Positions 4,506 through 19,627 of a stretch of 43,355 bases of DNA are shown piece by piece. The stretch's first letter is position 1. Each line of letters starts with the position of its first letter. The notes below the pieces were generated by a model, which searched no databases, had not been told where the DNA came from, and saw only the letters and a list, made by a program, of their open reading frames with translations. The position numbers were made by a program, and so were the translations under genes. The stretch is from an uncultured Cocleimonas sp. (GTDB lineage: Bacteria; Pseudomonadota; Gammaproteobacteria; Thiotrichales; Thiotrichaceae), in NCBI GenBank assembly GCA_937929875.1, contig CALFUP010000161.1:1-43355 (forward strand), read 5' to 3'.

Positions 4506-7076
4506 ATGGCAATATTCAATTACACTATCAGATACTTATTTGCACCTCTTTTTTGTGCAACTATTTTAAGTATAGCGGTTATCACCGCTGTTTATTTCTA
4601 TTACCTACCTCAAGTACCATCTGTCTCTGAACTTCGAAATACTCAACTCAATTTACCACTACGAGTTTATAGTAATGATGATCAGTTAATTGCTGAATTC
4701 GGAGAGTATAGAAGACGCCCTATCACCTACGAACAGGTCCCTGATGATTTACGTAATGCTTTTATTTCAATTGAGGACTCTCGATTCTATTCACATAAAG
4801 GAATAGATTTTCGTGGAATTGCACGCGCCGTTGTTTCAGCATTTAAAAGTGGCAGAGTATCTCAAGGAGCAAGTACTATTACGATGCAAGTTGCTCGAAA
4901 CTTCTTTTTGAATAACGACAGAACAATTGATCGAAAGCTTAGAGAAGCACTATTAGCACTTAGTATCGAAGATGAACTTAATAAAGAAGATATTCTGGAA
5001 CTTTATTTAAATAAGATATTTTTAGGTAAACGCTCATACGGAGTGGGATCTGCAGCAGAAATTTACTATGGTAAAAAGGTTGAGGATTTAACACTTGCGC
5101 AAAGCGCAATGATTGCTGGATTACCAAAAGCACCATCCAAATACAATCCTATTACAAATCCTAAAAGAGCAAAAATACGCCGTGATTACATACTCAAACG
5201 TATGTTCGAGCTGGACTATATAACTGAATCAGCTTACAAAGCCGCAAAAGCTGAAAGCTTAAGCGCCACCATACACAGTGTAGAAAGCGAAACCTATGCT
5301 CCTTACATGGCAGAAATGGCGCGTACTGATGCAATAAAACGTTTTGGTGAAGAAAACATTTATAAACTTGGGTTAAAAATTTACACCACTCTAGATAGCT
5401 CCGAACAGGACAATGCCATCTCAACTCTTCGAGATAATCTTTTAAAATATACTAAAAGACATGGTTATCGAGGCCCAGAAGATCAAATCGTTTTAGGAAC
5501 TCTAAAAACTACCCAAGCTAAGCAAAATAAATTAAAAAAATATAAAGTTTACGCTAACTTATTTCCCGCACTTGTTACTAATATTGATTCAAAGTTGGCA
5601 ACCCTAGAAGTTTTTAAACAAAATACGCCTATAAAGCTCAGTGTAAAAGAAATTGGATGGGCCCGAAAATATATCAATGAAAACAAACGCGGCACAAAAA
5701 TCAAAAAGGTCGATGAGGTTTTAAAAGTCGGTGATATTGTTCGAGTAGAAAAAAACAACAAAGGTATTTGGAAGCTATCACAATTACCCAAAGTAACAGG
5801 TGCATTGGTTTCAATGAATCCACAAAATGGTGCTATCGAAGCAATAGCAGGTGGTTTTGATTTCACCTATAGTAAGTTTAATCGTGCGATTCAAGCTAAA
5901 CGTCAACCGGGCTCTAGCTTCAAACCCTTTATTTATGCTGCTGGTTTAGCTAAAGGGCTATCTCCTGCAACTACCATTGAAGATAAAGCACTAGAACTGG
6001 AAAACAGTACTTGGGAGCCCAAAAATTATGGTCATGAGGAAGGCGGTCCTACTAGATTAAGAGTCGCCCTAGCAAAATCTAAAAACCTAGTTTCTATAAG
6101 GTTATTACAAGAAATTGGGCTTGGTTATGCCATAGAATTCTCGAAACGATTTGGTTTCAAAAAACGTACATTACCTCCAGACTTAACCTTATCGCTAGGG
6201 ACAGGTTCGGCTACACCCTTAGAAATGGCAACGGCTTATTCAAGTTTTGCCAACGGCGGTTATAAAGTTGAAAGTCACTTTATTAGAAAAATACTAGATA
6301 AGAACAACACCACTATATTTGAAGCAGACCCCGTTACCGTTTGCCCTTCTTGCTCATCAAATAACAATGACCAAAAGTTCGTAAATCATCCCGCTAAGCG
6401 AATCATGTCTCCTACCGTTCATTATCAAATCACTAGCATGCTGCAGAGTGTTGCTCAATCTGGTACCGGATCTCGCACAAATCGACTAAAAAGAAATGAT
6501 CTTGCAGGTAAGACAGGAACGACTGATGACCAAAAAGATGCTTGGTTTTGTGGTTTTAATCCAAACAAGGTAACTACAGTATGGGTTGGCTTTGATCAAA
6601 TAGCCCCTTTGGGAAAAAGAGAAACAGCAGCGGATGCAGCACTTCCTATATGGATTGATTTTATGAAGACTGCACTTAAAGATCAAAAACAAACTGGCTG
6701 GAAAACACCTCGTGGCCTCATTAATGTTGAACTTGATAAAGAGACTGGGATGCCACCCAATGAATACACTCTTGAGACCATTACGGAAAAATTAACACCA
6801 GATCAAATTCCGACGGAAGAAGAGATACTCGCTTATATGGCTAAATATCGAGAAGACCTAATTGAACAACAAGAATTACAACAGCTCGAGAATCTTGAAG
6901 GACTAGATGACGTTGCTCGCCAAAGGCAATTAGATAGAATTAGAAGAGAAGCGGCGCAACGAGAAGAAAACCAAAGACGAAGAGAACAAGCGAGACAAAG
7001 AGAGATTGAACGTTTACGTCAGCTAGGCATTGAACCCCCTGCTTCTTTGTTAAACCCGCAGGCTAGAGCAAACTAA
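4506..7076 (+). CDS. mrcA: Penicillin-binding protein 1A (bifunctional glycosyltransferase/transpeptidase)
   Basis: A class A PBP that polymerises and crosslinks peptidoglycan at the outer face of the inner membrane. The 856-residue product has an N-terminal anchor helix (about 8-31). The GT51 domain carries the catalytic-site motif EDSRFYSHKGIDF (Glu90) and a second motif region ASTITMQVARNFF. An OB-like insert typical of PBP1a (about 300-430) follows. The transpeptidase domain has all three boxes: SSFK (Ser470, Lys473), SKN (525-527) and KTGT (669-672). The C-terminus ends in a charged Arg/Glu/Gln-rich tail (about 770-856) likely to be helical. Length and motifs match PBP1a (mrcA/ponA). It is monocistronic and faces lspA convergently. 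Confidence 0.96.
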   Translation: MAIFNYTIRYLFAPLFCATILSIAVITAVYFYYLPQVPSVSELRNTQLNLPLRVYSNDDQLIAEFGEYRRRPITYEQVPDDLRNAFISIEDSRFYSHKGIDFRGIARAVVSAFKSGRVSQGASTITMQVARNFFLNNDRTIDRKLREALLALSIEDELNKEDILELYLNKIFLGKRSYGVGSAAEIYYGKKVEDLTLAQSAMIAGLPKAPSKYNPITNPKRAKIRRDYILKRMFELDYITESAYKAAKAESLSATIHSVESETYAPYMAEMARTDAIKRFGEENIYKLGLKIYTTLDSSEQDNAISTLRDNLLKYTKRHGYRGPEDQIVLGTLKTTQAKQNKLKKYKVYANLFPALVTNIDSKLATLEVFKQNTPIKLSVKEIGWARKYINENKRGTKIKKVDEVLKVGDIVRVEKNNKGIWKLSQLPKVTGALVSMNPQNGAIEAIAGGFDFTYSKFNRAIQAKRQPGSSFKPFIYAAGLAKGLSPATTIEDKALELENSTWEPKNYGHEEGGPTRLRVALAKSKNLVSIRLLQEIGLGYAIEFSKRFGFKKRTLPPDLTLSLGTGSATPLEMATAYSSFANGGYKVESHFIRKILDKNNTTIFEADPVTVCPSCSSNNNDQKFVNHPAKRIMSPTVHYQITSMLQSVAQSGTGSRTNRLKRNDLAGKTGTTDDQKDAWFCGFNPNKVTTVWVGFDQIAPLGKRETAADAALPIWIDFMKTALKDQKQTGWKTPRGLINVELDKETGMPPNEYTLETITEKLTPDQIPTEEEILAYMAKYREDLIEQQELQQLENLEGLDDVARQRQLDRIRREAAQREENQRRREQARQREIERLRQLGIEPPASLLNPQARAN

Positions 7077-7080
7077 AAAG

Positions 7081-7099
7081 CACACCCCCCTACTTTTTG
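7081..7099 (-). repeat. Dispersed 19-bp repeat, copy A
   Basis: Matches the minus-strand form of the window-wide consensus CAAAAAGTRGGGGGGTGTC, with one change (final C to G). It lies 4 bases after the mrcA stop, in the convergent gap with lspA. Confidence 0.8.
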
Positions 7100-7260
7100 G
7101 TACTTTTACCTATTAATTCTAAATATTAATATTGATTTCAATTTAAAGACAAGTTCACCCATTCGATAAATATTATGCAGTTTGGTCAGAGAAAATTAAA
7201 CTGAAAAATTCATATAGATGAGATTTGTAAAATGATCACTGTGTCTAAAAAAACCTAATG

Positions 7261-7839
7261 CTAACTCTCATCTTTAACAAAAAAGCTACCAATAACTAAC
7301 ACTACTGCACCAATATTAATCGCTATATCTGCCACATTAAATGTCGCAAAATGATAAAAGCCATCATGCCATTGACTCAAAAAGAACACATCCCAATCTG
7401 CAAAAACATCAATAAAATCTATGACTCTTCCGTACAAGACTCGGTCGATCAAATTACCGATTGCACCACCAAGAACCAAAGATAAACTTATAGCGGTCCA
7501 TTTTTCTTCTTGCTTCAGCTTAGAAAGCCATACCAGAATAACAACACTCACTACCGTAGCTAAAATGGTAAAAAACCATCTCTGCCAACCACCTTGATCG
7601 CCTAAAAAGCTAAATGCAGCACCATAGTTATAAGCTAGAGTGAAGTTTAAATGGGGAATTACAGGATAAGATTCTCCGCCTGCAGACAATAACTCCAAAC
7701 TGCCTTCAGCCGTCCATTTAGTGATTTGATCTATAAAAATCACCACGAACGTAATCCAAAGCCATTTTAAAGGGGTACTTGGAAGCAAACTATCATCTTC
7801 TAGTTCAATAGCCACGTCTCTAGGCTCTTTATTAGGCAT
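7261..7839 (-). CDS. lspA: Lipoprotein signal peptidase (signal peptidase II)
   Basis: LspA is the inner-membrane aspartyl peptidase that removes the signal peptide from diacylglyceryl-prolipoproteins. The sequence predicts four membrane helices and contains both catalytic Asp blocks: [19 protein letters not shown] and [12 protein letters not shown] choose the ATG at 7839 (192 residues, MPNKEPRD...), which overlaps the ileS stop by 8 bases. The longer frame opening at 7878 would add an N-terminus not seen in the family and would lie further inside ileS. The N-terminal cytoplasmic extension of about 25 residues is longer than usual. The usual downstream neighbours fkpB and ispH are absent. Confidence 0.95.
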
Positions 7840-10681
7840 AAAAACGAGCCTCACCATCACCAACAACATTTTCCACACAACGACTACAAAGCTCAGGATG
7901 ATCAGGATTCACGCCGACATCTTCACGCTGGTGCCAACAGCGAACACATTTTTCTGCGCTAGATGCTACCACTGATAACCAGACGTTTTTAACATCTTCA
8001 CCTTCTGCAATCAAAGTATCAGTAGGCTGAGAATCAGCTTCAACCAGAGTTGCTTCAGAAGATATTAAGGCGAAGCGAAGTTCATTTTTTAATTTATTTA
8101 AGGCTTCGTAGGTTTCACCAGATGCATATACTGTGATTTCAGCATTCAAAGATGAACCAATGACTTTATCTTTACGTAATTGTTCCAGTTGCTTACTAAC
8201 AGCGACACGCACTGCAAATATACTATTCCAATCTGCATTGCTAATTTTCTCATCGGAGTCTAATTCGAATAATTGCTCATACCATTCGGTTAATAGGACA
8301 TATTCAACTGGCTTTTCACTATCTGCATAAATAGCATCCCAAATTTCTTCACTAGTAAAACTCAAAATTGGGTACATCCAACGCACCAAAGCTTGTAGGA
8401 TATGATGAGCAGCAGTCTGCGCCGAACGTCTTGCTAATGAATTAGCAGGCATGGTGTATTGTCTATCTTTTGTAATATCCAAATACAAACTGCCCATTTC
8501 AATAGAACAGAACTTTAATAACTCTTGGTAAACCAAATGAAATTGCATGTTCTCATAGGCTTCAATGATGATAGCCTGTGACTTTGCCGCTTTAGCCATT
8601 GCCCAGCGATCCAGCGCAAGCATATCTTCATTAGCCACCATGTCAGTAGCTGGGTTAAAGTCATTAGTATTTGATAAGAAATATCGCGCTGTATTACGGA
8701 TACGTCTATACGCATCTGCAGAACGCTTCAATATTTCATCGGATACTGTAATCTCACGTGAATAATCAGACGACGATACCCATAAGCGCAAAATATCCGC
8801 ACCCAAATTCTTCATAACTTTATCTGGGTATATGACATTACCTACAGACTTAGACATTTTTTTGCCTTCAGCATCTGTCACAAAGCCATGTGTAAGCACG
8901 TTCTTATAAGGAGGCCTGTCGCGCATTGCCACTGACGTTAGCAGCGAAGAATGGAACCAACCACGATGCTGATCAGAACCTTCCAAATACATATCAGCAG
9001 GTGAATTGCGCAAGCGCTCATCACTATCTAACACAGAATAATGCGTTGTGCCTGAGTCAAACCACACATCTAATGTATCAGTGGTTTTATTATAGTCGTT
9101 AGCATCAGTGCCGATAAGGTCTTCAGCTGATGTGCTGTGCCAATATTCGATACCTTCTTGCTCAATCCCTTTCGCCACTTTTTCCATGATTTCAAGCGTA
9201 TTTGGATGAAGTTCTTCCGTTTCCTTATGTACAAATAAAGTGATCGGCACGCCCCAAAAACGCTGACGGGATATACACCAATCTGGGCGTCCTTCGATCA
9301 TTTTGTAGATGCGGCTCTTGCCCCAATCCGGAATCCATTTAACTTCATCGATGCCTTTTAAAGCATCATCACGAAGCCCTTGTTTTTCCATGCTGATAAA
9401 CCATTGTGGCGTAGCGCGGAAGATAATGGGTGTTTTATGTCTCCAACAATGCGGATAGCTATGATGAAATTTTTCATGGTTCAACATACTGCCGTTTGAT
9501 TCTATTTCCGCCAATACCGTTTTATTTCCAGCATAAACAAACTGCCCACCAACCAACTCAACATCCGGTAAGAAATGACCATCATTACCGATAGGATTGA
9601 TGACTTCTAAGCCATATTTTTTAGCAACGACATAATCATCGGCACCATGAGCAGCGGCAGTGTGAACGGCACCTGTTCCACCTTCTGCAGTAACATGTTC
9701 GCCCAAGATCACAGGAATATCGCGGATATAAAAAGGATGCTTTAAAATCATCCCTTCAAGATCAGCTCCTTTACATCGACCTAATACGCCCTGATTTTCA
9801 AGCCCATAACGCTCAAGTGCAGACTCATGCAAAGACTCTTCAAGAATTAAAGCACCCTTTTCCGTCTTCAGCATTAAATATTCAAATTCAGCGTTTAAAG
9901 TCACCGCCATACTGGCAGGTAACGTCCAAGGAGTGGTGGTCCAGATTACAATACTGACATCTTCAAGTGTAGAGACACCAAATTTATCTGCGACTGCCCC
10001 TTGATTATCAAACCAATATTTAACATCTATTGAATCAGATGTTTTGTCTTCGTACTCCACTTCAGCTTCAGCCAGAGAAGAGCCACAATCTAAACACCAA
10101 TTAACAGGCTTTTGACCTTTTAGCAGATGACCTTTATCAATGATCATGGCAAGTGAACGCACGATATTCGCTTCAGTCTTAAAGTTCATGGTTAGATAAG
10201 GGTCATCCCAATCGCCTAAAACACCCATGCGGATAAAGTCAGCTTTCTGACCAGCAATCTGTTTCGTTGCATACTCTCTACAGAGTTTTCTGAATTCGGT
10301 TGCGTCTACCTTATGACCTACTTTGCCTACCTTTTTCTCGACCATGGCTTCAATGGGTAAGCCATGACAATCCCAACCGGGTATATACGGTGTATCAAAC
10401 CCAGAGAGTGTCTTACTTTTAAGAATCATGTCTTTTAAGATTTTATTAACCGCGTGACCAATATGTAAATCACCATTTGCATACGGAGGACCATCATGCA
10501 AAATATACGTTGGACGACCTTCAGCATGTTTTCGCAACTGCGCGTAAATATCAGCTTCTACCCACGTTTTTAGCATCGCAGGTTCACGGTTTGCTAAATT
10601 CCCTTTCATAGGGAAAGGTGTATTGGGAAGGTTTAAGGTTTTCTTGTAATCGATTGAATCAGTGTTCGAATTGTCGCTCAC
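7832..10681 (-). CDS. ileS: Isoleucyl-tRNA synthetase
   Basis: IleRS charges tRNA-Ile and edits misactivated valine. The 949-residue product has the class I signature HIGH (residues 73-76, in [12 protein letters not shown]) and the second signature KMSKS (608-612). Between them lies the CP1 editing domain with the [11 protein letters not shown] motif. A C-terminal zinc finger (CVRCWHQ...CSRC) is present, as in bacterial type 1 IleRS. The start is a GTG at 10681 with AGGAT just upstream. It overlaps lspA downstream. In many gammaproteobacteria ribF precedes ileS; here the upstream neighbour is an unrelated oxygenase gene. Confidence 0.98.
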
Positions 10682-10756
10682 GGTATATCCTAAGATTGGA
10701 AATCATAAAGCGGCTAAGAATAACAATAATTGAGAGGAAAACCGATAGTTATAAAT

Positions 10757-11767
10757 TTATTTTTTATCGTTTGAAATCACCGCCCAAGGCGACCTAGACC
10801 CTCTTTTTTCTGCGGCCTCATCCGCTTTTTTGCGAAACAAACCCAAAAAATGATATTGAAGCTTGTTTGCATACTCTCCACCAACACCTGGAAACGGTAA
10901 AAAAGGGTTGGTACGGCTATCTCCCCAAAGTGCTAAACGAGTACTTTTACCAACGCTATCGCCGCGTTTATGAATGCCAAATACATTCACCATCACTAAG
11001 GTGTTTTTCTTCACTGTAAACTCAACAGGTGCTGATAAACCAAGTTCAGCAAGGTCTTCATCAGAATAACGTGTAGATCCTCTAGCGTGCATATTGTTTT
11101 TGTCATCTTGAGCGACAACACTCATTTTATATTCCCATTTTATCCGCTTCCAGTCTAATCTATGTGAACGAGGAATGAAGGTAAAGGCTCCTGAGTTTTC
11201 GGCAACATCACCAATAAACAACCAACATTTCATTGATGGATGAAAAGTATCATGATGAAACATCTTTTGAGGATCGCTTTGCCCAGAAGAATATTCATTC
11301 TTGATTTCTTCAAGGTAATACAAAGGATCACGCATATGTCCTGAGGTAAATCTAGCTAATCGCTGAAAATGTTTGCTGAATAGAGTCTTTTTAATTTCAG
11401 GATATTCGGCTAACACTTCTGGCGATAAAACAGCACGTTGTGTAAGTGTATTACCCTGCTTAGCTTCGCGAACTTCTCCATCAAAAGCTCGGATTTCATT
11501 TTCTAAGTTTTCAAAGTCATTCTCAGGTAAATAATCCTCCTTTAACAAATATCCCTGTTGAAAAAAGCACCGTCGATCTTCCGCTGATATACCTATCGAC
11601 AACACTAACATTCTAATCCGCATGACAAAGTGCGATAGCAACATACGAAGCACATGTAAGCCACAGCGGTTTAGTGTTTTAGAGCCTATGATCGGGTTAT
11701 CTTTAAATGACTTTGCAGAAGTCATTAGTTCAAATAGATAAAGAGGTATTTTTTGTAAGGAAGACAT
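10757..11767 (-). CDS. Phytanoyl-CoA dioxygenase (PhyH)-like Fe(II)/2-oxoglutarate oxygenase
   Basis: A predicted non-haem iron oxygenase with a double-stranded beta-helix fold. The iron triad is visible: HxD as H171-H-D173 (in FHHDTFHP) and the distal His at 266 (FGIHKRGD). Arg277 (STRLALWG) is the likely 2-oxoglutarate carboxylate ligand. The stretch SGAFTFIPRSHR (about 192-203) is typical of the PhyH family. The 336-residue length is usual. The N-terminal 60 residues are hydrophobic and basic and may associate with the membrane. The substrate cannot be told from sequence; characterised relatives hydroxylate fatty acyl-CoAs, ectoine or small metabolites. It lies 75 bases before ileS on the same strand and diverges from the motor-like operon. 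Confidence 0.8.
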   Translation of the reverse strand: MSSLQKIPLYLFELMTSAKSFKDNPIIGSKTLNRCGLHVLRMLLSHFVMRIRMLVLSIGISAEDRRCFFQQGYLLKEDYLPENDFENLENEIRAFDGEVREAKQGNTLTQRAVLSPEVLAEYPEIKKTLFSKHFQRLARFTSGHMRDPLYYLEEIKNEYSSGQSDPQKMFHHDTFHPSMKCWLFIGDVAENSGAFTFIPRSHRLDWKRIKWEYKMSVVAQDDKNNMHARGSTRYSDEDLAELGLSAPVEFTVKKNTLVMVNVFGIHKRGDSVGKSTRLALWGDSRTNPFLPFPGVGGEYANKLQYHFLGLFRKKADEAAEKRGSRSPWAVISNDKK

Positions 11768-12069
11768 TCGTTTTAAACAATAACCATGGTAATGGATTTA
11801 TCAATATGACTAAAAATAATTAGCTCACTCTAAACAGCTTGGTAAATTAACCCATTCAAAGCCATTAATGTATGCGTCATCCTCCCATAAACCAATTCAA
11901 ATCAAGCAATAACGATCAAAAAGTAGGGGGGTGTCATTTTATGATATAACAATTGCCAATTAACACACAAAATAAAAAGAACTGTTATCCTCTATTATTG
12001 TCTGACAGTATGATAAATTACTGATCGTTTTAAAGAATCGAATACTCTTAATACCATGGAGCACCGCGA
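11768..12069. promoter_or_regulatory. Divergent intergenic region before the motor-like operon
   Basis: These 302 bases lie between the divergent oxygenase gene and the 12070 operon and should contain both promoters. They hold one dispersed-repeat copy (11917-11935). GGAG at 12059-12062, about 7 bases before the GTG start at 12070, is the likely ribosome-binding site. No convincing -35/-10 pair was found. Confidence 0.5.
11917..11935 (+). repeat. Dispersed 19-bp repeat, copy B
   Basis: An exact plus-strand match to CAAAAAGTRGGGGGGTGTC with R=A, followed by ATTTTAT as in several other copies. It sits in the divergent gap upstream of the 12070 operon. Confidence 0.85.
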
Positions 12070-13074
12070 GTGAGCAATAAAAACAACGGTAACACGCTAA
12101 ATCACAACTACCCAATCGAACAAGCTTTTAAATTTCCGTTAATTATTACCGCAATATTAGTTTTGTTACCTGGATTAGCACTCTACTGGTTTATTGGAGA
12201 TGCTCAAAGTACCCCACGAAGCCTTAAACTCTTTGTAGGCAACTGGATTTCACCCATAATATTATGGTTTTTTTGTGCCAGCTTTTTCCACTTATGGCTC
12301 AAACGTTCACAATTAAAAAAAGAAATCGATGCTAGCGAATTGCTTTCAAATAAATTAATTCCAAACATGTTTCATGGAGGTATCGACCAATATACTGAAA
12401 ACGAGCTAGAAGCTGAACTACAAACCACTAACTCTCAAAATAACATATCAAAAGAAAACCTTTTACACTCAAGATTATCGTTATTTCTAAATCATGCCGA
12501 CAATGACATTGACGAAACATTCGCAATTAAAGAACGTGAATACATGAAAGGCTCCTTTTCATTATCACGCTTTATGGTTTGGGCAATACCAATCATGGGA
12601 TTCATTGGAACTGTTTGGGGGATTAGTAATGGTATCTCACATTTCTCTGATGCGATGACGAGTACTAACTCTGTCACTGATGTATCGGCAATGCTTAAAG
12701 AAAGTTTACCTTTGGTGACCAGCTCATTAGCGACTGCATTTGATACCACCTTACTGGCTTTATTACTCAGTATTCCATTAATGATGCTAATGCTTTCTTT
12801 AGAGAAGGATGAAGAAGCTTATTTAATTGATCTTGACGAGAAATGGTTTCATGACATTAAACCTTTATTGGTAAAAAGCACACAGCAAAGCCTTTCACAA
12901 AATACGATCCAATCGGCTGAAGGCATTGTCGCTGTTGCAGATAACTCACAAGCCGTAGCCAACGAAATCACTTTACTGAGTACTCAAATCAAAGCGCTTC
13001 AAGAAACTATGGAAGATCTATACGAAACGGTTTTCACTTCCAAACTAAATGAGCGTTCAAATAAAAAGCCCTAA
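12070..13074 (+). CDS. MotA/TolQ/ExbB-like proton-channel subunit
   Basis: The product resembles the channel (A) subunit of 5:2-type ion-driven motors. Four membrane helices are predicted: about 22-41, 58-76, 168-186 and 214-242, with a cytoplasmic loop of about 90 residues between the second and third as in TolQ/ExbB/MotA. The third helix carries GFIGTVWGISNGI, close to the family G-x-x-GTVWG pattern. The fourth carries TSSLATAFDTTLLALLLSIP, matching the Thr/Ala-rich pore helix of TolQ/ExbB. The C-terminus (about 290-330) is likely helical. It begins with GTG preceded by GGAG. It is the first gene of a five-gene operon with two TolR-like partners, which supports the family call. The process it drives is unknown. 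Confidence 0.82.
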   Translation: MSNKNNGNTLNHNYPIEQAFKFPLIITAILVLLPGLALYWFIGDAQSTPRSLKLFVGNWISPIILWFFCASFFHLWLKRSQLKKEIDASELLSNKLIPNMFHGGIDQYTENELEAELQTTNSQNNISKENLLHSRLSLFLNHADNDIDETFAIKEREYMKGSFSLSRFMVWAIPIMGFIGTVWGISNGISHFSDAMTSTNSVTDVSAMLKESLPLVTSSLATAFDTTLLALLLSIPLMMLMLSLEKDEEAYLIDLDEKWFHDIKPLLVKSTQQSLSQNTIQSAEGIVAVADNSQAVANEITLLSTQIKALQETMEDLYETVFTSKLNERSNKKP

Positions 13075-13150
13075 AATAGCTTTCTAAAAACCATATGAAT
13101 TCAAAACTGACCAGCAAGTTTTTCCACGCAATGGAGATTGTAAGTTAAGC

Positions 13151-13789
13151 ATGGCTATGTCTCGCGCCACGCGTTACGCACGCTATAATCAAGGAGAAAA
13201 ACTTGAGATTAGTTTATTTCCGTTTCTTAGTATTTTCCTATGCGTCATGGGGGTATTGTCTTTTATCAATGTTTTGAATAGCTTTAGTACACCGCAGAAA
13301 ATTGAATTAACGGCTCAGTTAGAACAAGGCTACAAAGTTGCTTATCAAATTTTTAGTTTGCCCGATGGTATTATCAGCGTTCCTCCTACGAAACACCTTC
13401 TTAAACTAAAAACTGAAGTAGACGAAAGTGATGCATTAGTCATTGAAGATATTTTAGATAGGCGTTCTCAATCAATGCAACGCTTAGAATCACACCAAGG
13501 CTCTGTCATGAACCTCGCGTTACAACCTGATATGGACTCTATTTTAGAAACCATGTTAGACATTCGAACCCTCAATGAAATTGCCTTAAAAGCAAACTAT
13601 CTTTACGAGGAGTTTTTGTTATTTGGAATTTATCCAAATGGTGGTTCTGCCTATCAAAAAATTCGCGATATTATGAGCTTTACCCCAGACGCAACCTCTA
13701 TCAGTGTTGGTCTTGAGCCTTTAGACAGCAACTGGACCTTAAACCTAAATCCAAATTTAGGTCCCAATAAAGATGGAACTGTTGAATAG
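13151..13789 (+). CDS. TolR/ExbD-like single-span protein with Ser in place of the channel Asp
   Basis: A 212-residue bitopic protein. After a basic N-terminus comes a membrane segment (about 20-42) reading LEISLFPFLSIFLCVMGVL. This aligns by eye with the TolR/ExbD pattern (E-I-x-x-x-P-x-L-D-V), but Ser27 stands where the proton-carrying Asp would be. The rest (about 45-212) is predicted periplasmic, with no OmpA-like peptidoglycan-binding motif. The family is not one I can name. It follows the channel gene by 76 bases and precedes the next ORF by 5 bases. ATG at 13151 or 13157 could be the start; a GGAG at 13133-13136 is a little far from either. I infer a B-type stator subunit working with the 13795 product. 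Confidence 0.6.
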   Translation: MAMSRATRYARYNQGEKLEISLFPFLSIFLCVMGVLSFINVLNSFSTPQKIELTAQLEQGYKVAYQIFSLPDGIISVPPTKHLLKLKTEVDESDALVIEDILDRRSQSMQRLESHQGSVMNLALQPDMDSILETMLDIRTLNEIALKANYLYEEFLLFGIYPNGGSAYQKIRDIMSFTPDATSISVGLEPLDSNWTLNLNPNLGPNKDGTVE

Positions 13790-13794
13790 CTATC

Positions 13795-14424
13795 ATGAAG
13801 AATTTAATCAGCCTAGATTCTCTAACCGACATTGTCTCTAATTCAGTGGGAATTTTGATCATTTTTGCTGTAATAAATCTCATCCATGATAATAACAAAA
13901 CCTATCAATTAGAAATTCCAATCGAGCATCGCACTGAACTTAGCCCTGCATTTTTCATGATAAAGAATGATAGTATTTTAGAAATGGATACTGATGTGCT
14001 GTTCTCTAATGCCACGGTTCAAGCAACAAGCGGAGCAGCTATTAATGAACGCTTATTTACTTTAGATTATTTTGACGTACTCGGTAAAATTGATGAAGGT
14101 AAAGGTGTTTCTTTTTTCGCCAGAGATACTGCTACATGGCCTAAGTTTCAGGAATTAGGCAAGGGCAACTCAAAATTAACTACAGCTTTGAATAAACTCG
14201 ATGCAAATAAGCAATTTGCCTTCTTTTTTGTCTATGATAGTAATGACGGTGAGGCTTCGGGTAATGGCTTTGAAGCTTTTCGTGAAGCACGCGAATACCT
14301 AAAAACACGCCGAATTAAAACTGGATGGCGACCAGTAAATGACGAAGCTCCTGCAAACATTTGCCAAGACCATTTTGGTAAACGTTGTGATTTTCTCCCT
14401 TCTTATTTAGGGGATATTCGATGA
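13795..14424 (+). CDS. Second TolR/ExbD-like single-span protein, channel Asp retained
   Basis: A 209-residue bitopic protein with a very short cytoplasmic N-terminus. Its membrane helix (about 13-31) is preceded by SLDSLTDIVSNSVGILIIF. Asp12 falls at the position of the essential TolR/ExbD/MotB Asp, with another acidic residue at Asp8. The periplasmic part ends with a helical run FEAFREAREYLKTRRIKTGW and two Cys near the C-terminus (ICQDHFGKRC). It lies 5 bases after the Ser-bearing partner and overlaps the following TPR gene by 4 bases (ATGA). The two proteins are similar in size and topology but clearly diverged in sequence. I infer a heteromeric B-subunit pair. No named family recognised. 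Confidence 0.6.
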   Translation: MKNLISLDSLTDIVSNSVGILIIFAVINLIHDNNKTYQLEIPIEHRTELSPAFFMIKNDSILEMDTDVLFSNATVQATSGAAINERLFTLDYFDVLGKIDEGKGVSFFARDTATWPKFQELGKGNSKLTTALNKLDANKQFAFFFVYDSNDGEASGNGFEAFREAREYLKTRRIKTGWRPVNDEAPANICQDHFGKRCDFLPSYLGDIR

Positions 14425-16031
14425 GTAAGAAGCTACCCTTTATTCAACTCAAAAAAGCTTGGGGTTTAGACGAAAATACCTCAATCGAAACGCTTTTAAT
14501 CGAAGCTCAGAAAAGAATAAAAGCTGACCCTAAAAATCCAGAGCTTAGCTTCAATACCGCTGAAATATTACGTCATTTAGACCGCAACAAAGAAGCTGCC
14601 CAACGCTATAAAGAAGCGGTAAGAAAAACTGATGCTAAAACCGAAGCTCGCTCAATTGAGTTACACCAAAGAGTAAAAAAACAACGAAAAGAGACTCGAA
14701 ATAAATTTTTGCTGATTACTTTTGCACCATTAGCCATTGCATTCTTTTTAGGTTTATTTACGTGGCAAAAACTCACCGAACCAGAGAAATTACCCGCTGA
14801 TAGCGATCCTGAAAAATTTGCCTTTACCCAATGGTTAGCCAAACAGCAAATGGCAGAAGTAATGACCACTTTGCAACAACAGAATCCTGAATTGAGTTTT
14901 GACTTCAGTTCGTCATCAGCCAGTGCTCAGTCACCTATGGAATTTATGCAGTCTTTAATGCAAACAGACGCCATCGAAAAAATGCGCCGTGATAATCAAA
15001 ATACTAAAAACTCTCAAAGTGAAGAAGGCGCAGGTCGACCTGCATTTCAATGTACTAAAGAACCTGCAGTAATGTGTGCAGCCAAAGATATTCCCAATGC
15101 ACCTGGTGATTCTCGAGAAGAAGTTGTTTTATTAATGGAAGCCTATGATTCTATTTTAAACAGCGAAAAAGACTGTACCAAAATAGAACAATCCATTGAG
15201 AGCATAGGCGAACAACTACAATGGAGAAAGTCTGAACGTCGAATTAAGGCTAACCTAGAAGATTTAGCAGTCGAATGCTATTACCGTCAAAAAAACCTCG
15301 AAAAAACGGTCGAGCATGCACGTAAATTGCAATGTACCGGGGATGAAAGTTACATCAACAGTGTCTACTGGTATTTGACCTCCATTAATCATCGTGTCGG
15401 TGACAAAACAAAAGCACTCAGTTCTTATCAATGTTTTCAAGAGGCAACTGACTACATTACTCAACATGACTTCAGTCCCGCTTATGTGGCCTCAAGACAT
15501 CGCGAATCAGGTGCACTCGCTTGGTTGTATTTTGATGACCTAGAAGGCGCAACATCATCATTAATAAAAGGTAGAAAGATTTTAAAAGAGATACCAGAAA
15601 AATCTGCTGGAATGTTGCAAGTTATCTCCGAAATTAATTTGGATCTAATGGAAACTTACGTCACTGCTAATATTGACAGAGATACATTTGATGAGCTTTT
15701 AGAAGAGATAAATTCTAGCGGCTTACTCACTGACGGCTACAAACAGATAAAAGATACACTTGCTGCAATTTATCACATGCAAAACTCAAATAATGCTGAC
15801 GCACTCATACCATTAGCAAACATCAGTAGTCGTTTTAGCTTAATGCCGGAATTCATCTGTGGCTGGGATTGGAGCGGTTTTGATCGTGGCTTAGACGAAT
15901 CAATTACTAACGATAGTATTCGTGAACAAGCGAGAACATTGGTTAATGCTACAAACTGTTATATCCCTCAAACCATGCAAACACGTATTCAAAATGTAAA
16001 TAAAGTTGGGAAGTGGTTAAAGTCACAATGA
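14421..16031 (+). CDS. Membrane-anchored TPR protein with Cys-rich periplasmic part
   Basis: A 536-residue protein. Residues about 25-75 look like a tetratricopeptide pair (PKNPELSFNTAEILRHLDRN...EAAQRYKEAV) on the cytoplasmic side. A membrane helix follows (96-115), then a Gln/Ser-rich linker and a long helical C-terminal region (about 200-530) suggestive of further TPR/SEL-like repeats. All eight cysteines lie after the membrane helix and none before it, as expected for disulfides in the periplasm. It is translationally coupled to the second TolR-like gene by a 4-base overlap, so it likely belongs to the same complex, perhaps as a scaffold spanning both faces of the membrane. No enzymatic motif found. 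Confidence 0.6.
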   Translation: MSKKLPFIQLKKAWGLDENTSIETLLIEAQKRIKADPKNPELSFNTAEILRHLDRNKEAAQRYKEAVRKTDAKTEARSIELHQRVKKQRKETRNKFLLITFAPLAIAFFLGLFTWQKLTEPEKLPADSDPEKFAFTQWLAKQQMAEVMTTLQQQNPELSFDFSSSSASAQSPMEFMQSLMQTDAIEKMRRDNQNTKNSQSEEGAGRPAFQCTKEPAVMCAAKDIPNAPGDSREEVVLLMEAYDSILNSEKDCTKIEQSIESIGEQLQWRKSERRIKANLEDLAVECYYRQKNLEKTVEHARKLQCTGDESYINSVYWYLTSINHRVGDKTKALSSYQCFQEATDYITQHDFSPAYVASRHRESGALAWLYFDDLEGATSSLIKGRKILKEIPEKSAGMLQVISEINLDLMETYVTANIDRDTFDELLEEINSSGLLTDGYKQIKDTLAAIYHMQNSNNADALIPLANISSRFSLMPEFICGWDWSGFDRGLDESITNDSIREQARTLVNATNCYIPQTMQTRIQNVNKVGKWLKSQ

Positions 16032-16080
16032 TAAGTCTCATAAACACTTTAATATACAGGTTGATTAAAACACGAACCTC

Positions 16081-16099
16081 CAAAAAGTGGGGGGGTGTC
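16081..16099 (+). repeat. Dispersed 19-bp repeat, copy C
   Basis: An exact consensus match with R=G. It lies in the 183-base gap between the TPR gene and the peptidase-like gene. GTCATTTTATT (16097-16107) can pair imperfectly, 9 of 11 positions, with AATACAAAGAC (16126-16136). Confidence 0.85.
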
Positions 16100-16139
16100 A
16101 TTTTATTCCTCTCAAAGCGAAGCCCAATACAAAGACCTC

Positions 16140-16158
16140 TAAAAAGTGGGGGGGTGTC
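16140..16158 (+). repeat. Dispersed 19-bp repeat, copy D
   Basis: Differs from the consensus only at the first base (T for C). It is a direct repeat of copy C, 59 bases downstream, with ACCTC shared just upstream of both. GTGTCTTTAT can pair with ATAAAACAC about 25 bases further on, with one bulge. Confidence 0.85.
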
Positions 16159-16214
16159 TTTATATAGCTTAAAACGGTTAATAAAACACAATCTAAACCA
16201 AGCCGAGGTAATCT

Positions 16215-18080
16215 GTGTTAAATAAAATTATCCTAGCTGCAATTAATCGGGCAAATACTTCAAAGCCCGATGCGATGCAAGCTGATGCTTTCGAAAACCC
16301 AACAAGCTACACAGGATATATTTATCCGCTTCGATATTTACTAGCACTTCGTTACTTAAAAACAAAACAAAAGACCTTGGCGCACTTTCGTTACAAAAAA
16401 GAATATCCGATAGCAGCGAATGATTTCACAAATGCGTTAATTGAACGTTTATCAAACAAACAGTCATCAAATCAAATCAAACACAACGCTGAATTAACTA
16501 AGCCTAATTTCCCTTGGTTGGGCAATGTGTTTACGGCAAAAATTATCTATCCTCTACTTTTTGTTTCATTGGCTGGCGTTTTATTTAGCGTTAACCAATG
16601 GCATCAACAGAAAAAAATAGAAAGTGTATTGGCTAATTACTTGCCTTATTTTTCAGACTTATTACATCGTAAACTTCTGTTAAAACACAATGATGCAAAT
16701 ACTAATTTAGTGGAAGCTACTGAGTTATCAATCAATAAAACAGAAAATAAAATCCTAAGCGAGCTTCCGGAAAAAAATGGTGTGAGAGACATCATGCAAG
16801 CACAATTAACAAAACTGAAAGACCCAAATACCGATAGCGAAAGCATCATGTTTGGCTTTAAAGAAGTAAATACGCTCTTTGACAAAGAACAGCAACCTTA
16901 TTACTTGTCGCCAAAGTCGTTTACTATGCCATGCTCATCTTTGATTGATGCACCCGTTGAGCAAATGATGATGCTCAAAGAACTCGAATCTTTAATGAGC
17001 AATAACAATCCAGAATTGTGCCGCACTACCATGATGACGACTTACAAGGTTGATGATCGAACTCAGCTTTTTTATAAGGATAAACATGTCACAAAAAGTA
17101 ATGAGGTAGAACTGCCGTTATTTCATGTGCGACGAATCGATAAAGTACCTGCAGTAGATGGAGCACTTGGCTTAACTTTTAAAGAAAGAGGCATCGGTTC
17201 GATTATTCTTGTGGATAGAATTAAAAACTTTGCAAGAGAGTCGATCTTACCCGCCCTCACCTTTCAAGGCAGAAATTATATCATTCCCTATTGGATGCAA
17301 GGTCATTATGAAATAGAAGAAGCCGTAACCAAAGGCTATAAAAAAGACATTAACCAGATTTACCCTGATAAAACGGAACAAAAAAAAGTAAAAACCTTAG
17401 TTAAGCAGTTGATCAAAGATAAAAACCGCATGCAAAATTCTAAAATGGAACAGACCATGCAACGCACCAACAGTAATAACGATCAAAACATTTTTGGTAA
17501 TGGCTTCGATGCGATTAGTGTTTTATTAGGGAATAGTAAAAAAGATAAAGGCAATATTAAAGAGTTTGTAAGACCCCTATTTGATGAAGCTGATTCACAA
17601 ACTCTAAAAAAACTGGATGAGGCTTTGTACCCCAGTATTGAATACCATGAGGCTTATCATCAAATTGATAAAAAAGATTGGCTTCCGCCCAATTGGTTAA
17701 CATCAGTTTTTAAAGGAAAACTAGATGAAAATGCCACCGAGCATACTTTAGAAGAGCTTGGTGCTTACTTATCTCAATTAGCAAATACCGAGCAAGGCCA
17801 GAATATATGGCTAAGTAAATTATTAATATTTTCATTAAACCCAATGACAAAAGGACAAGCAGAATATTACGCTTCCAGTATTATCTTTAATGCGATGGAA
17901 GCACTACATTTAGAAGAAGCGATCGAAGCAAATTATATTGCAACAGTTGACGACAAAACTCGTATTTTTAAAGCATTACTCAGCAAAGACAGCGATGAAA
18001 TAAGCAGAATGGCTCGTCAAGCCTATCAAATATTGTTCCAGAGAGATGTACCAAACTTAGCAAACCATTCTCTTAACTAA
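16215..18080 (+). CDS. Membrane-anchored protein with HEAYH zinc-peptidase motif
   Basis: A 621-residue protein I cannot assign to a named family. Residues 1-105 are predicted cytoplasmic, a membrane helix spans about 109-127, and about 490 residues follow on the periplasmic side. HEAYH (His478, Glu479, His482) matches the HExxH zinc-metallopeptidase signature. Glu513/Glu514, in TLEELGAYLSQL 31-32 residues later, could supply the third ligand as in gluzincins. Two Cys near 238 and 276 could form a disulfide. The start is a GTG at 16215 with GAGGT upstream. It shares strand and theme with the four preceding genes, although 183 bases with two repeats intervene. Peptidase activity is an inference from one motif. 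Confidence 0.6.
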   Translation: MLNKIILAAINRANTSKPDAMQADAFENPTSYTGYIYPLRYLLALRYLKTKQKTLAHFRYKKEYPIAANDFTNALIERLSNKQSSNQIKHNAELTKPNFPWLGNVFTAKIIYPLLFVSLAGVLFSVNQWHQQKKIESVLANYLPYFSDLLHRKLLLKHNDANTNLVEATELSINKTENKILSELPEKNGVRDIMQAQLTKLKDPNTDSESIMFGFKEVNTLFDKEQQPYYLSPKSFTMPCSSLIDAPVEQMMMLKELESLMSNNNPELCRTTMMTTYKVDDRTQLFYKDKHVTKSNEVELPLFHVRRIDKVPAVDGALGLTFKERGIGSIILVDRIKNFARESILPALTFQGRNYIIPYWMQGHYEIEEAVTKGYKKDINQIYPDKTEQKKVKTLVKQLIKDKNRMQNSKMEQTMQRTNSNNDQNIFGNGFDAISVLLGNSKKDKGNIKEFVRPLFDEADSQTLKKLDEALYPSIEYHEAYHQIDKKDWLPPNWLTSVFKGKLDENATEHTLEELGAYLSQLANTEQGQNIWLSKLLIFSLNPMTKGQAEYYASSIIFNAMEALHLEEAIEANYIATVDDKTRIFKALLSKDSDEISRMARQAYQILFQRDVPNLANHSLN

Positions 18081-18256: not shown

Positions 18257-19627
18257 ATGATCGAAAGCCGCTATAAAATTGAATACGTCTTCCCTAATGA
18301 AGACCAAGCTAAAAAGAAAGCCTCTCCGTTCAGAGTATTATGGTATTTACTCCTTATCCCGCTCATAGGAATGGTTGTAGCAGCTATTACTTATGATTTT
18401 TCTTTCAAAGACTTATCTCGTGATTCACTTGTATTAATTGAAAAAGCCAAGGTGCAGGTTTTCAATCTTGGAGAGCAAAAAGTATCTATAGATTTAAAGG
18501 AAACAGCTGAGAAACAGGCAATAGCACCCATAGAAAAACCAATTTCAAAAGTTGCAGAAGAAAAAACAGCTCCAATTATTGCCGTTGCTCCCATAGAAAA
18601 AATAGAACGATATAAATCAAAAATCTCTCAATTAAGTTCTCAACAAGAAGCGCAACTAAAATCCATCCAAGAACAAATTGAAAAAAATTCAGCATTTTCA
18701 AAAAAACTTAATTCAATATCGGAACAGTTAGTTCTTGAACAAATAAAAAATCAGCAGTTGAACTCTTTGGTCACAGAACAAGAAAAAGACAGATTAGAGT
18801 TAGAAGAACAATACAATAAGGCTCTAGAAAAGACTGATATTGCCTCGATTCAAAGTACTAATAAAGCCTCAAAAAATCAGATATCTACTAAAGAAACTAT
18901 AGAACAAGTGCCTACTGAGGTTAACAAGGAAGAGATTAACGTAACTAAAGTTCAGGAGAATGAAGATGCTGTTCTAGTAACGACAAAAGAAATTACTCAG
19001 ACAGCAGAGATAGTAGATCAAAGCGAGAAATCTGAAACTGATAAAATCATCGAAGCTATGACTACAATAGCTAAAGATACCACTAGTGAAACAGAAAAAA
19101 ACGTATCGACAGTTAATAAAACTAGTGAAAAGTTAGATACACAATCAAAAAACAAAGAAATTGCTAACCCAAAAAAAGAAGAAGCTAATAATAATGTTAC
19201 CGAACTAGTGAAAGTAAAAGAAATCATTAAAACTCCCAAAACTGAAGAAGTAACGGAGTTATCTGAAACGGATAAAATTATTAAAGCAATGAGCACGACC
19301 ACAAAAGTTAACACTAGCGAGAAACTCGCCGAAGTTGATAAAACCAAGTCTAAAACAACAGAGCTTAAATCAAGCATTAATTCAATTACTGACAATGAAG
19401 ACACCGATGTCAGCTCAACTGAATATGCAACAAAAGTGACTGAAACTAACACTACCGAGATAAGCAATACTTCTAAAAATGATATTGCAGAATCAGAGAA
19501 AGTTATAAAAACAACAGAAGCTGAAAAAAAAGAAGTATCTTCAGTGGATGCGATTATAGCTGCTATGCAGGAAACTAAAACAACGAGTAGTTCGGATGAT
19601 CAGAGTAAGACTGTCGATTCAAAATAA
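18257..19627 (+). CDS. Membrane-anchored coiled-coil protein with three short C-terminal repeats
   Basis: A 456-residue protein of unknown function. One membrane helix lies at about 27-45 with a basic cytoplasmic side before it. A coiled coil (about 115-185, Gln/Glu/Lys/Leu-rich) follows, then a long Lys/Glu/Thr/Ser-rich, probably disordered tail. A short motif of the form S-x-x-D-x-I-I-x-A-M occurs three times, at about residues 259, 336 and 429 (SETDKIIEAMT, SETDKIIKAMS, SSVDAIIAAMQ), the last close to the C-terminus. No good ribosome-binding site precedes the ATG, which sits in very AT-rich sequence. It follows the motor-like operon on the same strand and converges on ccmI. Membership in the motor-like system is possible but unproven. 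Confidence 0.55.
   Translation: MIESRYKIEYVFPNEDQAKKKASPFRVLWYLLLIPLIGMVVAAITYDFSFKDLSRDSLVLIEKAKVQVFNLGEQKVSIDLKETAEKQAIAPIEKPISKVAEEKTAPIIAVAPIEKIERYKSKISQLSSQQEAQLKSIQEQIEKNSAFSKKLNSISEQLVLEQIKNQQLNSLVTEQEKDRLELEEQYNKALEKTDIASIQSTNKASKNQISTKETIEQVPTEVNKEEINVTKVQENEDAVLVTTKEITQTAEIVDQSEKSETDKIIEAMTTIAKDTTSETEKNVSTVNKTSEKLDTQSKNKEIANPKKEEANNNVTELVKVKEIIKTPKTEEVTELSETDKIIKAMSTTTKVNTSEKLAEVDKTKSKTTELKSSINSITDNEDTDVSSTEYATKVTETNTTEISNTSKNDIAESEKVIKTTEAEKKEVSSVDAIIAAMQETKTTSSSDDQSKTVDSK

Follow-up and report, generated by a model that had tools for sequence, protein, structure and literature searches.

The 43,355-nucleotide stretch analysed here (the window) is a 43 kb contig from an uncultured Cocleimonas species of the gammaproteobacterial family Thiotrichaceae, whose draft genome comprises 3.25 Mb and is 87% complete. 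Between positions 12070 and 18080 it carries five same-strand genes, for which a preliminary description, made from the sequence alone, had proposed a role as an undescribed ion-driven motor complex of the inner membrane. The genes are termed A, B, C, T and P, and the modules into which they fall ABC and TP; these names are our own labels. Each product has at least one transmembrane segment (TM), and T has a possible tetratricopeptide repeat (TPR):

12070-13074, + strand: gene A (334 aa, GTG start), MotA/TolQ/ExbB-type channel subunit with four membrane spans
13151-13789, + strand: gene B (212 aa), bitopic protein, candidate TolR-like axle without membrane aspartate; TM ISLFPFLSIFLCVMGVLSF, with S27 at the place expected for the aspartate
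13795-14424, + strand: gene C (209 aa), bitopic protein resembling ExbD/TolR; the invariant residues D8 and D12 lie where the chain enters the membrane
14421-16031, + strand: gene T (536 aa), weak TPR match at residues ~33-70, one TM (96-114), large periplasmic domain
16215-18080, + strand: gene P (621 aa), one TM (~105-123) and a periplasmic domain; candidate gluzincin-type zinc peptidase, M49-like

All five open reading frames (ORFs) are intact. By hydropathy analysis A has four hydrophobic stretches, whereas B, C, T and P have one each, bearing out the description of an exclusively membrane-anchored set with one four-span and four bitopic products. In most relatives the genes overlap or almost touch, as had been remarked of the window, where the gap between T and P is wide (183 bases) and contains a dispersed repeat. 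Searches of Pfam, NCBIfam, PADLOC and PDB sequences found no family for B, C or P, and assign the set to no characterized system. In eight further genomes of the family (loci L027-L032, L044 and L046; 46-79% identity), orthologues of all five genes are arranged as in the window, indicating that the set is not a chance assembly.

Gene A encodes the most readily classified product. It matches the MotA_ExbB family (PF01618) with an E-value of 1.7e-7 and 31.5 bits, compared with a curated cut-off of 22.9, and P174, T181, D225, T226, T227 and P236 are invariant in 15 sequences. When A is aligned with the TolQ of the same genome, the spacing of P174, T181, T227 and P236 equals that of TolQ P138, T145, T178 and P187; in TolQ, P138 and P187 kink the pore helices, while T145 and T178 form a polar ring beside the TolR aspartates (PMC12215075). 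The four-span, TolQ/ExbB-like channel subunit seen at the outset is hence confirmed, and the identity of A as part of a MotA/TolQ/ExbB-class ion-driven motor is well supported. D225 stands two residues ahead of T227, a position at which there is no acid in the genome's own TolQ or in two other clear ExbB-type paralogues, and the C-terminal helical tail carries a conserved ALQETMEDLYE motif. The closest relative of A found outside the family is a MotA-type gene at another locus (L061, genome G079; 34% identity over 100 aa, E 5.6e-14).

C is the better supported of the two putative axle proteins. D12 is invariant in 26 sequences and lies at the start of the single TM; the essential aspartate of ExbD and TolR likewise sits near the TM start. 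Cys190 and Cys198 are also invariant in these sequences. C has no Pfam family match at E ≤ 10, and its locus is not listed in a PF02472 search of its own genome. An AlphaFold model (26 sequences; mean predicted local distance difference test score, pLDDT, 70.1) has an alpha/beta periplasmic domain, which VIA-align superimposes on ExbD (8pek) with Z 5.6 and a root-mean-square deviation (rmsd) of 3.2 over 86 of 98 residues, tied with CD38. The alignment with 8pek is collinear, begins directly after the TM and spans nearly the whole ExbD periplasmic domain; that with CD38 covers merely one third of the CD38 chain. Foldseek alone gives no match for this model at E ≤ 0.001. Taken together, the model and the gene context make a good but not conclusive case that the periplasmic domain of C is ExbD-like.

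B shares the topology of TolR, with a positively charged N-terminus and one TM (FPFLSIFLCVMGVL). However, the membrane aspartate typical of ExbD and TolR is replaced by S27 in 25 of 25 sequences, none of which has a charged residue anywhere in the TM. Comparisons by hhalign of B with C, B with TolR and C with TolR are not significant; weak local alignments of B land on the beta-alpha-beta end common to ExbD and TolR. The single suggestive match of the B profile outside the family (E 0.007) is to the N-terminus (FSMSFLDAICCGFG) of a bitopic protein encoded near a MotA-type gene in another gammaproteobacterium, and in that protein the aspartate is present. The earlier view of two TolR-like bitopic proteins thus holds for C, which has the key aspartate and a modelled domain resembling that of ExbD, and for B by motif and position only.

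T and P would form the output module. T has a Pfam match to TPR_16 near its N-terminus (E 0.011), and its TM is preceded by a strongly positive stretch. Eight periplasmic cysteines (C211, C219, C252, C286, C305, C338, C480 and C513) are invariant among 17 sequences, which fits an oxidizing compartment. T had been taken for a TPR protein crossing the membrane: the span stands, but the TPR match is weak and on the cytoplasmic side, and the periplasmic part is cysteine-rich rather than a clear TPR scaffold. The motor with a periplasmic TPR scaffold and peptidase, as first envisaged, is partly supported: the motor subunit, the ExbD-like partner and the metallopeptidase-type P are retained, and the view of T is modified.

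In P, HEAYH (residues 478-482) is followed 35 residues on by LEELGAYL (E513/E514), and this HEAYH...LEExxA zincin motif is invariant in 19 sequences, down to ~40% identity, which upholds the description of a bitopic, metallopeptidase-like protein. The pattern is that of the M49 family, HExxH or HExxGH with a downstream EE motif, and short M49 proteins of other gammaproteobacteria have HEVAH...LEEGKAD at similar spacing. The structural model of P, built from nine sequences, is mediocre (mean pLDDT 64.5); its best match is dipeptidyl-peptidase III (DPP III; 5zum, Z 9.2, rmsd 5.3, 276 residues aligned), and DPP III structures take up eight of the 14 best structural rows. At E ≤ 0.001 Foldseek alone finds no match for the model, PF03571 is not among the Pfam matches, and hhalign against eight M49 proteins gives none. 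P therefore resembles DPP III in its zinc motif followed by LEExxA, in the use of HExxH by short M49 relatives and in the head of its structural list, but differs in being membrane-anchored and in having no detectable sequence relation. Because of this missing sequence link, candidate gluzincin is the most fitting label for P, which may be M49-like.

The two modules have different genomic arrangements and a common distribution. All complete ABC loci that were examined have the order A-B-C, and in many of them the genes overlap slightly. The five genes stand together, closely spaced, in genus g1 (Cocleimonas, that of the window) and in genome G014 of g2; in g3 and g4 (Leucothrix), ABC is separated from TP by ~11 kb or lies on another contig. 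Of 63 genomes of the order, 36 lack C as well as T and P. The other 27 all have C, which is joined by T or P in 24 of them, so that no genome has T or P without C; the three that have only C are drafts, with completeness of 58, 90 and 84% (a weak T match in G023, E 0.005, was left out of the count). Both modules are absent from genera g5-g8, most of g2 and two g1 genomes (G003 and G006). ABC and TP are thus two modules that lack linkage in two of the four genera but share one pattern of presence and absence. Their trees agree on two points: each splits g1 plus g2 from g3 and g4, and each places G014 (g2) beside G004 and G007 (g1). One genome, G005, carries a second ABC copy (L059/L067, G005:C7, 3444-6480), in which an unrelated 131-aa ORF lies between A and B.

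These data bear on an alternative in which ABC and TP are separate systems, a stand-alone Tol/Exb-like motor and a stand-alone envelope protease, that are merely adjacent in Cocleimonas. Their lack of linkage in g3 and g4, where each has different neighbours, speaks for this alternative. However, their joint presence and absence across the 63 genomes and their tight contiguity in g1 and G014 argue against it, and we consider two independent systems unlikely.

Beyond the family, searches of 369 gammaproteobacterial genomes with B, C and P gave weak matches only and no genuine relative. When the GTDB genome collection was scanned for C, using patterns that reach near relatives only, 26 loci were recovered. 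Almost all of these bear the label Thiotrichaceae, Cocleimonas or Leucothrix; the labels of two are different or broad (a 'Proteobacteria bacterium' and a metagenome bin named 'Aquificaceae bacterium'), and their sequences are as close as the rest. Searches of IMG/VR and PLSDB with C gave nothing relevant, and thus no sign of phage or plasmid origin. Conservation across gammaproteobacteria had been proposed as a check; the five genes do co-occur, but within Thiotrichaceae rather than across the class, and they are not linked in all genera. The set is therefore an undescribed, lineage-restricted one conserved in Cocleimonas, Leucothrix and relatives.

The genomic company of the modules in Leucothrix points to peptidoglycan. 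In nine loci, which come from about six genomes, A is preceded at a distance of 7-36 bp by a Peptidase_S13 gene (dacB, PBP4-type; D-Ala-D-Ala carboxypeptidase), with Pfam E-values below 1e-82 in the four loci tested. In six genomes P is followed, 14-48 bp on, by a lipoprotein gene, the product of which belongs to the OmpA family, and is Pal-like, in three of three cases tested. The set had been said to lack a visible OmpA-like domain, which is true of the window but not of Leucothrix, where this Pal-type lipoprotein follows TP. Two small single-TM coiled-coil proteins (~190 and ~180 aa) are encoded after C in g3 (L055, 4640-5212; L056, 2584-3722; L064, 6519-7640) and may be extra parts.

Comparison with known motors reveals both shared and distinct features. 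The set resembles TolQ-TolR-TolA (Tol-Pal) in its PF01618 channel, which keeps the prolines and threonines of TolQ, in its ExbD/TolR-type partner with a membrane aspartate and, in Leucothrix, in the Pal-like lipoprotein after TP and the PBP4-type gene before ABC. It differs from Tol-Pal in its two unlike axle proteins, one without the aspartate, in lacking TolA and TolB, and in the zincin-type protein of its output module; moreover, its own genome has a separate tolQ-tolR pair, followed by a TolA-like gene. The uncharacterized MotA-type locus in G079 (L061) likewise has two bitopic partners, and both the nearest channel sequence found for A and the E 0.007 match of the B profile are located there. 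In contrast to B, both partners at that locus keep the membrane aspartate; at least one has a VWA-like domain, and the neighbours are FHA and kinase genes. That locus (6757-16997) comprises MotA/ExbB, an FHA protein, two bitopic VWA/TolR-like proteins, an FGE-sulfatase/PEGA protein and a Ser/Thr kinase.

The AglRQS-Glt machinery of Myxococcus xanthus offers a further parallel, and the set might be a divergent Agl-Glt core complex, made up of gammaproteobacterial relatives of the Myxococcus gliding motor. AglR, AglQ and AglS are one TolQ-type and two TolR-type proteins, TPR and envelope partners are encoded at separate loci, motor and partner modules being unlinked as they are in g3 and g4, and the core occurs, with no function assigned, in Gammaproteobacteria (PMC3169522). 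However, AglQ and AglS are clear members of PF02472 (6.7e-18 and 3.1e-15, respectively), whereas neither B nor C, which would have to be the two PF02472 partners of an AglR-type channel, matches that family. The partner proteins also differ, with no zincin among the Glt proteins named in the passages of that paper considered here; an Agl-Glt affiliation is accordingly improbable. A Zorya-like phage-defence motor with different effectors is most improbable, as had been recognized at the outset: although ZorA models are the sole PADLOC matches of A (best ZorA1, E 3.8e-7) and both proteins have a C-terminal helical tail, the match is limited to the general channel domain and tail, A has two candidate partners rather than a single ZorB with its peptidoglycan-binding domain (PMC11890865), no such domain, nuclease or helicase is present, B, C, T and P have no PADLOC match, T and P have their large soluble domains in the periplasm, and inheritance is lineage-wide rather than patchy.

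On balance, the five genes probably encode a Tol/Agl-like ion-driven motor (ABC) with a periplasmic peptidase/scaffold output (TP) acting on the wall or outer membrane. In such a motor, a ring of A, pentameric by analogy, would surround one membrane helix each of B and C in the inner membrane. Ions would pass by way of D12 of C and the polar ring of A, causing the axle to turn or shift, and T would receive or transmit the movement. P would then act in the periplasm as a zinc-dependent peptidase. The cell wall or an outer-membrane link is proposed as the site of action because the modules adjoin PBP4 and Pal-like lipoprotein genes in Leucothrix, and the job may be like that of Tol-Pal. The sequences themselves establish the gene set and its order, its conservation and joint inheritance, the channel and aspartate signatures and the zincin motif; we infer the ring stoichiometry, the pairing of B and C in one pore, the ion-driven movement, the coupling of ABC to TP, the peptidase activity and the target. 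Several points weigh against this interpretation. No profile ties B or C to ExbD/TolR by sequence. The match of C to ExbD reaches only Z 5.6, level with the unrelated CD38, and the membrane part of its model is of low confidence; the model of P is mediocre and lacks an hhalign link to M49. Joint presence was counted over related genomes, which implies few independent gains and losses, and since the Leucothrix species are related, synteny alone could explain part of their shared neighbourhood.

In the window, the neighbours of the set are a PhyH-type gene and ileS at one end and genes for a coiled-coil membrane protein and a CycH-like cytochrome-c-biogenesis protein at the other; Rfam and tRNA scans identified no RNA feature. 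The next ORF, at 18257-19627, was assessed as a possible TolA-like arm and rejected, given that a gap of ~180 bp separates it from P, that it was seen beside the set in only a few Cocleimonas-type genomes and that other genes come after P in Leucothrix. The 18-bp dispersed repeat AAAAAGTRGGGGGGTGTC, a REP-like element, occurs at positions 7081, 11918, 16082, 16141, 25637, 28926, 31812, 34985, 39298 and 40871, two copies lying between T and P; the 3.25 Mb genome has 421 exact copies and none of the reversed control. Elsewhere in the same genome, another MotA/ExbB-like gene stands with a 628-aa bitopic coiled-coil partner (SFWPSFTDIMMVIVMVFLL; L062, G000:C98:353-3286). A further small motor-like cluster (L004, G000:C110, locus positions 1123-2940) encodes a MotA/ExbB-type protein of 221 aa, a bitopic protein of 219 aa that contains ADPFIDLLFNSLLGFSFLFLV, and a third protein of 163 aa, and adjoins a rhodanese-like gene.

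One TolQ-type protein with two TolR-like proteins is already known from AglRQS; the unusual features here are a putative axle pair made of two unlike proteins and a partner of the zincin type. Models of 5:2 motors invoke two identical axle helices whose two aspartates alternate, with 36 degrees of rotation per ion (PMC12215075), and an AglQ-AglS heterodimer is an open question (PMC9389320). More tentatively, the axle may be a heterodimer of one B and one C, in which C alone bears the ion-binding aspartate and the wheel supplies a ring of A-D225 aspartates, the output driving a zinc peptidase. Stepping would then have to differ from that of two-aspartate 5:2 motors. If so, this natural system, with two unlike axles of which one lacks the aspartate, would allow a direct test of the alternating-site model, and the genes occur in the named strains Cocleimonas flava, Leucothrix arctica and Leucothrix pacifica. 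A zinc peptidase in the output module of such a motor would, if true, mean that this type of engine serves a novel purpose in the bacterial envelope.

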